A DNA stretch of 64,000 nt from contig CALMRZ010000046.1 of the NCBI GenBank assembly GCA_937872225.1, positions 1 through 64,000 on the forward strand, in the 5' to 3' direction. Positions 493 through 2,389 of the stretch are shown here, piece after piece. The notes under the pieces are model-generated. The model saw nothing but the letters and a program-made list of their open reading frames with translations, did not search any database and had not been told where the DNA came from. The stretch is from an uncultured Spirochaetota bacterium (GTDB taxonomy: Bacteria; Spirochaetota; UBA4802; UBA5550). A program made the position numbers and the translations under genes. The stretch's first letter is position 1. Each line of letters opens with the position of its first letter.

Positions 493-681
493 ATGAAATC
501 TAAGGATAACAATAAAACTCAAAAACAAAGACAATGTTCTGTCAAAGATGATGATGGAATGAATACGTGTGACCAGGTCCAACATCTCCTAGAATATTTC
601 TCAAAACTTGATAAGGATACAAGGGAATTCTATATCAAAACGATTTTACGAATCTATTATTTGTTGAATGAAACCAAATAA
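493..681 (+). CDS. Small hypothetical protein, 62 aa, upstream of recombinase
   Basis: I do not recognise this protein. It has a very charged, Lys/Gln/Asp-rich first third with two cysteines, then a helical C-terminal half (HLLEYFSKLDKDTREFYIKTI). The ATG at 493 has no clear ribosome-binding site. It lies 18 bases downstream of a promoter-like sequence with a palindromic operator. Its stop codon TAA overlaps a possible ATG of the recombinase (TAATG at 679-683), so the two are probably one transcript. A helper or regulator of the recombinase would fit the position but nothing in the sequence shows it. Confidence 0.4.
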   Translation: MKSKDNNKTQKQRQCSVKDDDGMNTCDQVQHLLEYFSKLDKDTREFYIKTILRIYYLLNETK

Positions 682-728: not shown

Positions 729-2378
729 ATGTCCCAGGAGCTTGGACGCCCGCCGGCTTTCGCCTACGATCGTGTAAGCACCCTGGAGCAGGCAGATGGC
801 CTTAGCCTGGAATATCAGAGCCAGGGTGCGGCGAAATATGCCCGTGAGAAGGACCTTCATGTCGTATATTATTTTACCGTAGCGGAAAGCGCCTCGAAGG
901 AGGGGAGGCGGGTTTTCAATGAAATGATAGATCTAGCGCTTCGGTACGATGTGAAACATCTTATTTTTAAGTCTACTGATCGTATGTCCCGAAATTACCG
1001 GGACCTTGCCCGTATTATCGAGTTAATTGAACACCATGATTTTGTAATACATTTCTATCAAACCAATAAAACTATTACCAAGAATTCAACTCATGATGAA
1101 AAATTCATGATTGGTATTGAACAGGCAGTAGCAAAACACTTATCAGACAAGATCAGCCATGATATTAAGAACGTAAATGCCTATAAAGTAAAAAAGGGTA
1201 TCTATTGCGGTAATGCACCGTATGGCTATATCTACGACAAGGAACACAAGAAGTTTGTCATCGATAAAAACACCGAGCACTCTCTACGATTTATTTTCAA
1301 TGAATTTGATACCGGGAAATTCAGTTTCGCAACATTTCGAGATTTTTTAAATTCAAACAAAATCCCGGCACCCAAAGGAGGGGAGTGGTCGAAGTCGAGC
1401 GTTTCCCAGGTATTGAAGAACCCTTTTTACCATGGAGAATTCATACACAAAAGCCAGCTCTTCAAAGGGAATCATGAAACCTATTATGAACGTGAAAGGT
1501 TTGAAGACCGTCTTAAAAGGATCGATGGCAATTGCGTTACCGATAAGCGTTACAAGGTACAAGCACCACTGAAAAAGTTCATTGTATGTGAATGCGGAAA
1601 GTTCATGTCGCCTGATATCAAAAAGAAGCAGTACCTGTATTATATTCACAAATGTCCTCATTGCGATATGCGCCAGATAACTGTTTCAGAAGAGGATATT
1701 TTTAGCAAAATTGACAAAGAGGTTGAGAGGGTTAGTTTTTCGAATGATCTATCAGTATTACTAAAGTCACTTTTCGGAGGGGCTATCATTCGTCACCAAA
1801 AAGATCGGAATAGGGATATTTCAGTGCTCAGTCGAAGGATAACTAACCTGGAAATCAAGAAGAACAAGCTGTATGACCTATACCTTGAGGATGACTATTT
1901 TACCAGGGATGACCTAAAAAGAAAGCTGGTAGAAATCGACAAGTCAATCCATTCGTTAAAAACACATTATAAGTCTCTATCCTTTGATAAGGAAAAGCTT
2001 CAGATTGAAGTTAATAATGTTATCGATACATTCAACAAGCTGCCGGAGATGTATGAGTCGGCTGATCACGATAAAAAGGCTCGGATATTAAAAGAGATGG
2101 CTGAGTGCATCGTTGTCAATAAAGAGACTGTGGGAATCCAATGGAAAAAGCCGTATATCTTTTTGATGAAAAAGCCTATAATAGCAATGAATGAGCAAAT
2201 AGAAATTCAACCGGGAGCTAAGCTGCCGGATAATGATCCAGCCCTTACCGGAACCACGAAGCGGTCCCATATAAACAAAAAGGACGTTCTCGTGAGTTCG
2301 AAAACGTCCTATCCTGCTCCCCCGGTAGGACTCGAACCTACGACCCAGTGGTTAACAGCCACTTGCTCTACCGACTGA
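729..2378 (+). CDS. Large serine recombinase (site-specific integrase)
   Basis: This enzyme would catalyse integration or excision of the element it sits on. The N-terminal resolvase domain (about residues 8-150) has the family motif YDRVST with the nucleophile Ser at about residue 17. A recombinase domain follows (about 150-265). Next is a zinc beta-ribbon with Cys pairs CEC (288, 290) and CPHC (310, 313), then a coiled coil. I chose ATG 729 because AAGG sits 7 bases upstream; an in-frame ATG at 681 overlaps the preceding stop but has no Shine-Dalgarno. The frame has no stop until 2376-2378, so its last residues are read through a transcription terminator and into the opposite-strand tRNA-Asn gene. 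The true end was therefore either lost at an element/chromosome junction or is created by it. Base use is clearly more AT-rich than the chromosome to the right. Confidence 0.9.
   Translation: MSQELGRPPAFAYDRVSTLEQADGLSLEYQSQGAAKYAREKDLHVVYYFTVAESASKEGRRVFNEMIDLALRYDVKHLIFKSTDRMSRNYRDLARIIELIEHHDFVIHFYQTNKTITKNSTHDEKFMIGIEQAVAKHLSDKISHDIKNVNAYKVKKGIYCGNAPYGYIYDKEHKKFVIDKNTEHSLRFIFNEFDTGKFSFATFRDFLNSNKIPAPKGGEWSKSSVSQVLKNPFYHGEFIHKSQLFKGNHETYYERERFEDRLKRIDGNCVTDKRYKVQAPLKKFIVCECGKFMSPDIKKKQYLYYIHKCPHCDMRQITVSEEDIFSKIDKEVERVSFSNDLSVLLKSLFGGAIIRHQKDRNRDISVLSRRITNLEIKKNKLYDLYLEDDYFTRDDLKRKLVEIDKSIHSLKTHYKSLSFDKEKLQIEVNNVIDTFNKLPEMYESADHDKKARILKEMAECIVVNKETVGIQWKKPYIFLMKKPIIAMNEQIEIQPGAKLPDNDPALTGTTKRSHINKKDVLVSSKTSYPAPPVGLEPTTQWLTATCSTD
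2276..2310 (-). terminator. Rho-independent terminator of tRNA-Asn
   Basis: A 12-base stem with one mismatch (arms 2281-2292 and 2299-2310, six-base loop) is followed on the minus strand by five T. It begins 7 bases past the 3' end of the tRNA. It lies inside the reading frame of the recombinase on the other strand, so at least this stretch is probably native chromosome. Confidence 0.75.
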
Positions 2379-2389
2379 GCTACAGGGGA
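2317..2389 (-). tRNA. tRNA-Asn (GTT)
   Basis: A 73-base cloverleaf read on the minus strand. The 7-bp acceptor stem TCCCCTG/CGGGGGA, a D-arm starting TAGCTCAG, an anticodon loop with GTT and a T-arm GGTTCGAGTCC are all visible. The discriminator is G and CCA is not encoded. Its 3' end faces the mobile element at 1-2316, the usual orientation for a tRNA used as an attachment site. Confidence 0.95.

Follow-up and report, generated by a model that had tools for sequence, protein, structure and literature searches.

In the streptococcal rumA ICEs, integration exchanges the 3' part of the serine integrase gene and so changes the C-terminus of the enzyme, according to the accessible part of the report (PMC4701971), and the principle of an integration-dependent serine integrase C-terminus is thus already published. 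Archaeal SSV-type "suicidal" integrases carry the att site inside an integrase gene that integration splits and that relatives may rescue, and a 2021 review, in the portion available to us, states that self-disrupting recombinases are exclusive to archaea (PMC8371274). In mycobacteriophage BPs, attP likewise lies inside an ORF, and the C-terminus of a regulatory protein is set by integration, although the ORF in question encodes the repressor and not the integrase (PMC4557955, available sections). In the tDNA genomic islands catalogued as Islander, the target tDNA is restored while a displaced tDNA fragment remains far away at the opposite end, and the 2014 account of these islands, as far as its accessible text goes, gives tRNA targeting by serine integrases as not known (PMC4383910). 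The locus analyzed here, taken together with its relatives, resembles each of these systems in the respect just mentioned, including the direct repeat that the rumA ICEs carry inside the serine integrase gene at one end of the element (PMC4701971, same portion). It lies in the window, which is the stretch of 64,000 nucleotides that forms the start of contig C46 in Spirochaetota genome G000 (4.69 Mb, 95 contigs). We hold with high confidence that the window contains the tRNA-side end of an integrative element inserted in tRNA-Asn, with attP inside the element's own large serine recombinase (LSR) gene, which is split by integration.

A recombinase frame that ends inside tRNA-Asn

The window protein contains the Pfam Resolvase and Recombinase domains in that order (PF00239, then PF07508), each above its gathering cut-off, and is therefore an LSR (Table 1). 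The serine of the motif YDRVST in its Resolvase domain is presumably the nucleophile. Its best NCBIfam matches are XisF (NF041201; 78 bits over residues 28-481) and CcrB (60.7 bits), yet these are far below the curated cut-offs of 375 and 900, and the protein is a member of neither group. A CEC...HKCPHC pattern can be seen in the protein, and Pfam gave no zinc-ribbon match at 1e-3. In a weak AlphaFold model (pTM 0.35), long helices span residues 355-402, 409-433, and 437-460, while residues 498-565 have pLDDT values below 50.

The original prediction held that this frame has no stop until it is inside the opposite-strand tRNA-Asn gene and that the terminator hairpin of the tRNA also lies within the frame. 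Both statements were upheld: the first in-frame stop is the TGA inside the tRNA, and the hairpin (2310-2281 on the minus strand, followed by TTTTTG) has a minus-strand RNA fold of -20.1 kcal/mol with a z of -4.89. The start that had been assigned at 729 is not required, as an earlier in-frame ATG lies upstream at 681. Rfam recognizes the tRNA at 2317-2389 with 70.7 bits, in agreement with ARAGORN. Within ~110 bases at the element end, LSR codons, the tRNA terminator, a probable att half-site, and the tRNA 3' end are all overlaid.

Two further observations concern the sequence to the left of the LSR. A 62-aa ORF ends at the LSR start and shares a motif like TRE-YIKA-L-YYLL with ORFs in G003 and G031 (by eye); searches of Pfam and PHROGs yielded no match for it, and its product is a candidate LSR partner, accessory factor, or directionality factor. 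In addition, the first 54-55 bases of the window are common to the starts of contigs C16 and C1, so the left part of the element was lost from the contig at a repeat; window bases 1-54 are the end of a repeated sequence, perhaps an IS, at an assembly break.

Table 1. Positions of the features at the tRNA-side end of the element, in window coordinates.
Feature	Position	Strand	Remarks
62-aa ORF directly upstream of the LSR	493..681	+	G003 and G031 each have a similar ORF at this position (similarity by eye)
LSR ORF, 565 aa	681..2378	+	ATG 681; TGA 2376-2378 inside antisense tRNA-Asn; Pfam Resolvase and Recombinase; PHROG 95 integrase
Resolvase catalytic domain, residues 26-173	756..1199	+	Pfam
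Recombinase domain, residues 202-282	1284..1526	+	Pfam
WKKPY, last family-wide conserved motif	2142..2156	+	Downstream linker to tDNA varies in sequence and length
tRNA-Asn terminator-like stem-loop, part of the element	2281..2310	-	Also LSR codons; together with GAGTTCGAA at 2294-2302, a probable attP half-site
att core GCTCCC (probable)	2316..2321	.	Homology of the C65 LSR remnant ends here
Antisense-tRNA stretch of the LSR frame	2322..2378	+	PVGLEPTTQWLTATCSTD and stop; supplied by the junction
tRNA-Asn(gtt), target gene, intact	2316..2389	-	ARAGORN; Rfam

Recurrence of the layout at tRNA and tmRNA genes

In 46 genomes of the order, a profile search at E <= 1e-40 identified 16 LSRs, and ARAGORN placed an antisense tRNA next to 15 of them (Asn 6, His 7, Trp 1, and Arg 1). 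Five further LSRs from outside the order came from 392 genomes drawn from the phylum (E <= 1e-60) and adjoin tRNA-Leu (2), tRNA-Val, tRNA-His, and a tmRNA. An LSR of Candidatus Kerfeldbacteria (L100 739-2235, 25% identity) also stops inside an antisense tRNA-Gln (its other frames were not part of the test described below), and the layout is therefore not confined to Spirochaetota. Altogether, 21 of 22 LSR homologues adjoin a tRNA or tmRNA gene, and every one of these 21 frames stops inside that gene. The sole homologue away from tDNA (G002:C12) has no tRNA on its 9.9-kb contig; close homologues with the same C-terminus away from any tRNA would have contradicted the original prediction, and this exception ends differently, as judged by eye. 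The 22 homologues include no LSRs weaker than the two thresholds and exclude both G019:C5, where an N-terminal piece of an LSR sits on a 3-kb contig that has no tRNA, and short matches to tRNA-Asn only. It should be noted that the tDNA-linked LSRs used to make the profile (A1) retained their antisense tails, a possible bias toward tDNA-linked matches, and that only three candidates per genome were scored in the phylum draw. A second LSR of this family is present in the window genome itself (G000:C49 69063-70613, L015), where it stops inside an antisense tRNA-Trp.

All of the first 15 tDNA-linked homologues keep the LSR frame open from the WKxPY motif to the tDNA, versus 8 of 30 cases for the other two frames; the product of the shuffle probabilities is 4.6e-13, with the caveat that these rows are related rather than independent. 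Five further homologues gave a similar result (5/5 open in the LSR frame versus 4/10 in the others). The linker between the motif and the tDNA ranges from 11 to 53 codons and is conserved in neither sequence nor length. Since the frames enter the tDNA in differing phases, there is no common antisense peptide under conservation; together with stops that fall anywhere from tDNA position 4 to 68, this ruled out a conserved antisense-tRNA peptide as a functional tail.

The layout was also found in five public contigs, four of which have the same lengths as contigs already in our set. A scan of viral contigs with the window LSR returned 37 pattern matches and no relatives, while phage and plasmid LSRs (261 and 46 records, respectively) were all <60% identical to it, their C-termini being outside of this comparison.

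Severed arms, joined remnants, and the far end of the element

At their distal ends, related elements have a short sequence, here called the arm, which encodes a conserved terminal peptide in the LSR frame (LIDDILLDFMIWMV, ILEEVKMDFRLWLM). We found three arms in G003 and two, perhaps three, in G004, as well as arms in G005:C18 (two, one with an internal stop), G031:C3 (two), G002:C73, G012:C12, G136, and G215, plus one in G017 that adjoins an LSR remnant with a broken frame. Where a matching LSR is known, the arm follows the LSR frame at the core, judged by eye for the window type (GCT CCC), G004, G017, G031, and G136; G004 uses another frame, its LSR entering CTG CTC CCC and its arm leaving ATG CTC CCA. 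Arm and tDNA-linked LSR are present on one contig in G004, 16.5 kb apart, and in G003, 6.7 kb apart. The G004 element of 16.5 kb carries type I restriction-modification genes.

Variation among the arms resembles that of coding sequence. Pairwise differences in 11 aligned arms are distributed 216/90/345 over codon positions 1/2/3, and for the most diverged pair (G004a and G031a), none of 5000 simulations preserved the peptide as well. In comparisons with G003a (n=10), six arms gave P < 0.03, and four close ones with only 2-3 differences gave P values of 0.04 to 0.56, which are weak or uninformative. Stops interrupt both the +1 and the +2 frame in all 11 arms, and the one reverse frame examined is open in 7 of them. 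This test left out G004's own arm, the second arms of G005 and G031, and those of G017, G136, and G215, all of which were gapped, broken, or found later. No arm was detected in the fetched stretches of the Trp, Arg, Val, and Leu elements or of tDNA-His elements other than G017, which include 120 kb of G012:C10; the arm search was empty in the stretches from G012:C10, G018, G016, G007, G005:C4, C49, G021, G039, G045, G191, G199, G201, and G088, several of which are short (upstream of the LSR, ~0.3 kb for G005:C4 and ~2.4 kb for G007). In G215:C36 (L170, L182), two arms lie behind a tRNA-like core (GGAGAGGGCGGGATT) and encode peptides like MEE(I/L)(K/R)MDFRLW, the matching LSR not having been located.

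Conservation of the peptide bears upon a simpler explanation, in which the LSR merely ends at its att site owing to dense packing of coding and att DNA, with a tail that is free to vary and a swap that has no effect upon the enzyme. Such tight packing would suit both the unconserved linkers after WKxPY and the low pLDDT of the last 68 residues, albeit in a weak model, but the peptide encoded past the core shows conservation at the protein level in several lineages and families, unlike an unimportant tail. We therefore consider this explanation possible, though rather improbable.

The original prediction had pointed to a repeat of the tRNA-side sequence at the distal end. Such repeats are present in relatives. 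An intact tDNA together with a displaced 3' fragment was found in G136 (17 bp) and in G004, where TGCTCCC follows a hairpin recognized by eye, and GAGTTCGAA at the element end is mirrored by TTCGAACC in the arm, from which we infer that the former, at 2294-2302, is a probable attP half-site. A clear outer-side core is absent for the second and third G003 arms and for those of G002:C73 and G012:C12. Local alignment for displaced tDNA ends in nine contigs and the window gave mostly chance-like matches, but it did reveal the G017 remnant.

Two LSR remnants are joined to an arm, and their match to tDNA-linked copies ends at the common core. In G000:C65, a 265-bp remnant matches window positions 2057-2321 with 91% likeness, ending directly after GCTCCC, and its frame then runs into SAPKGVQLSNQLLDDILLDFIIWAVEV and a stop, not into a tRNA; nearby are two more arm copies, each preceded by GCTCCC and, as judged by eye, a hairpin. 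In G136:C3, an LSR ends in tmRNA, and a reversed, 5'-truncated copy nearly 8 kb away is 92.4% alike over 768 bp. The match ends at TGGAGACGGCGGGAG in the tmRNA 3' end, after which one copy continues into the tmRNA and the other into KSKTKSSSADSVPAQIRAILEEVKMDFRLWLMRSAG and a stop. A displaced tmRNA end of 17 bp (TGTGGAGACGGCGGGAG) is joined to the same arm on G136:C2, such that this genome contains all three expected joints: LSR-tmRNA, displaced tmRNA end-arm, and LSR-arm. A scoring matrix built without the G136 arm gave it 17.6, compared to at most 15.0 for the non-arm matches listed. A separate, older LSR C-terminal remnant lies just upstream of the live LSR in G031:C64 (L088 96-785) and has neither the GCTCCC core nor an arm after its hairpin.

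The original prediction had offered two alternatives, namely that the junction cut off the recombinase's original end or that it supplied a changed one. From the in-frame, coding-like arms at the distal ends of relatives, we find that a single event does both. Its further suggestion, that the C-terminus differs between integrated and excised states, is supported in part by the LSR-arm DNA of two genomes; no circular or attP-only copy containing the LSR at full length came to light, the two LSR-arm copies being 5'-truncated remnants, and any difference in behavior between the two forms is only inferred. An LSR-arm joint could alternatively arise from a second element landing on the first, with identical sequence.

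The original prediction also placed the other end of the element to the left of the window. G003 carries, in contig order, an MqsA-like cassette, a HigBA-like cassette, the arm, ~6.7 kb of sequence, the LSR, and tRNA-Asn (the cassette family names being taken from the G000 copies). In G000:C65, both cassettes and the stretch that follows them are arranged likewise, with identities of 88.6, 84.3, and 66.8%, so the most likely start of the window element is C65 near 12880. This far end is thus inferred by synteny and sits on a separate contig that is not joined to the window.

Inter-arm cassettes of 0.8-1.0 kb contain HigBA-like genes, an MqsA-like antitoxin, or MazEF-like genes without an LSR, and arrays of such cassettes occur in the same order in two genomes (L009 12800-14860 in G000:C65, and G003:C40). 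It is possible that they are non-autonomous and mobilized by the LSR. Coding constraint is not expected in the arms that flank such LSR-less cassettes, and their presence there counts against the gene-splitting reading. At cassette borders, units of ~105 bp lie between two half-arm copies (L009 12880-13010 and 13790-13910, and the end of G005:C18) and hold an inverted repeat (CCGACCATT...AATGGTCGG) and a hairpin, which the simple model does not explain. The C65 repeats were also considered as integron attC sites, which was ruled out, since the units consist of a hairpin, GCTCCC, and an arm, with an in-frame peptide common to LSR remnants.

Proposed mechanism and relation to known systems

The frames, the arms and their coding-like variation, the break points at the junctions, and LSR-arm DNA from two lineages were all directly seen, and with these in hand we have very high confidence in the gene-splitting anatomy. 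To judge from sequence, the most probable location of attP is within the LSR gene, whose last 19-36 codons would be replaced with antisense tDNA upon integration. In the free form, the LSR gene would read across the core GCTCCC into the other end of the element, which supplies the conserved C-terminal peptide (type GRQYSNQLIDDILLDFMIWMVEV), and the circle is inferred to express this joined LSR-arm form. Integration at the tRNA 3' end would then strand the peptide codons at the far end of the element, and the LSR would continue into the antisense tRNA and stop there, an arrangement seen as DNA in relatives. We further infer that loss of the peptide may silence the enzyme or alter its directionality, making integration self-limiting, and that excision may need an intact LSR copy from a related element or another factor. 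Whether integration causes such a loss or change of LSR activity is about evenly balanced on present evidence, and a functional switch, whose effect on activity is untested, is no more than an even proposition. If it occurs, it would explain the arrays, remnants, and decayed copies, because re-mobilization would need a newcomer's intact enzyme, in parallel to the proposal made for archaeal suicidal integrases in the available portion of PMC8371274.

Integration might instead switch direction without silencing the enzyme, with the full-length form integrating and the tDNA-tailed form excising in the absence of a separate directionality factor. Two forms of one enzyme would then differ precisely by state, and continued use after integration would suit the finding that, of the 20 tDNA-linked LSRs measured, 14 have frames that run for 500 aa or more from stop to stop (the 21st, from Kerfeldbacteria, has 498). 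However, internal stops or frameshifts occur in 4 of the 20 (G003, G016, G088, and G136) and two others are partial (G028, at a contig edge, and G045), the tandem arrays and remnants at one tRNA suggest that elements often remain, and the small upstream ORF of three genomes could itself be the directionality factor. For these reasons we regard this reading as unlikely. Accidental decay, in which a deletion or assembly error joined the LSR to the tRNA and removed its stop, might be suspected from the contig ends and repeats at some sites (the window start and the G005:C4 end), but it is scarcely credible for one layout found at 21 loci with various tDNAs and frames, with 14 of 20 at 500 aa or more and five public contigs among its occurrences.

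We tentatively suggest, at somewhat under even chances, that the peptide is a cis-encoded license for joining attP to the tRNA attB, one that is removed from the gene by the joining itself. If true, the LSR sequence would record the integration state, direction could be controlled without a separate factor, and the antisense tRNA would give merely a neutral or an active replacement tail. Serine integrases are widely used genome-engineering enzymes for which control of direction is a central question, and this family offers natural enzyme pairs with and without a short C-terminal peptide, as set by integration state. It also calls for caution in annotation, as the genomic 3' ends of such integrase genes are junction products.

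In a literature search that left most subscription journals outside its scope, we found no report of tRNA-targeting, self-splitting serine recombinases. As far as that search extends, the new elements are the tRNA and tmRNA targets, the recurrence across the phylum and once beyond it, the conserved severed tail, and the toxin-antitoxin cassettes bounded by the same arms. The rumA ICEs, within the accessible part of PMC4701971, differ in that their target is a protein gene, rumA, which is also altered, whereas the window family targets tRNA or tmRNA genes (21 of 22 homologues) and leaves them intact; its new tail of antisense tDNA and its conserved severed peptide are further differences, and homology between the two families has not been established. 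The Islander islands, in the sections of PMC4383910 available to us, involve tyrosine integrases. SSV-type integrases, as presented in the same portion of PMC8371274, are tyrosine recombinases that are split into two fragments, whereas the window family has serine recombinase domains and loses just its last 19-36 codons; the splitting of a gene at an internal att site is common to both, with break points at the core in two lineages. Thus, the window LSR works like an SSV-type suicidal integrase without being a member of that group, and the family extends tRNA targeting and self-splitting integrases to bacterial serine recombinases, with the rumA ICEs as the precedent for C-terminal exchange.
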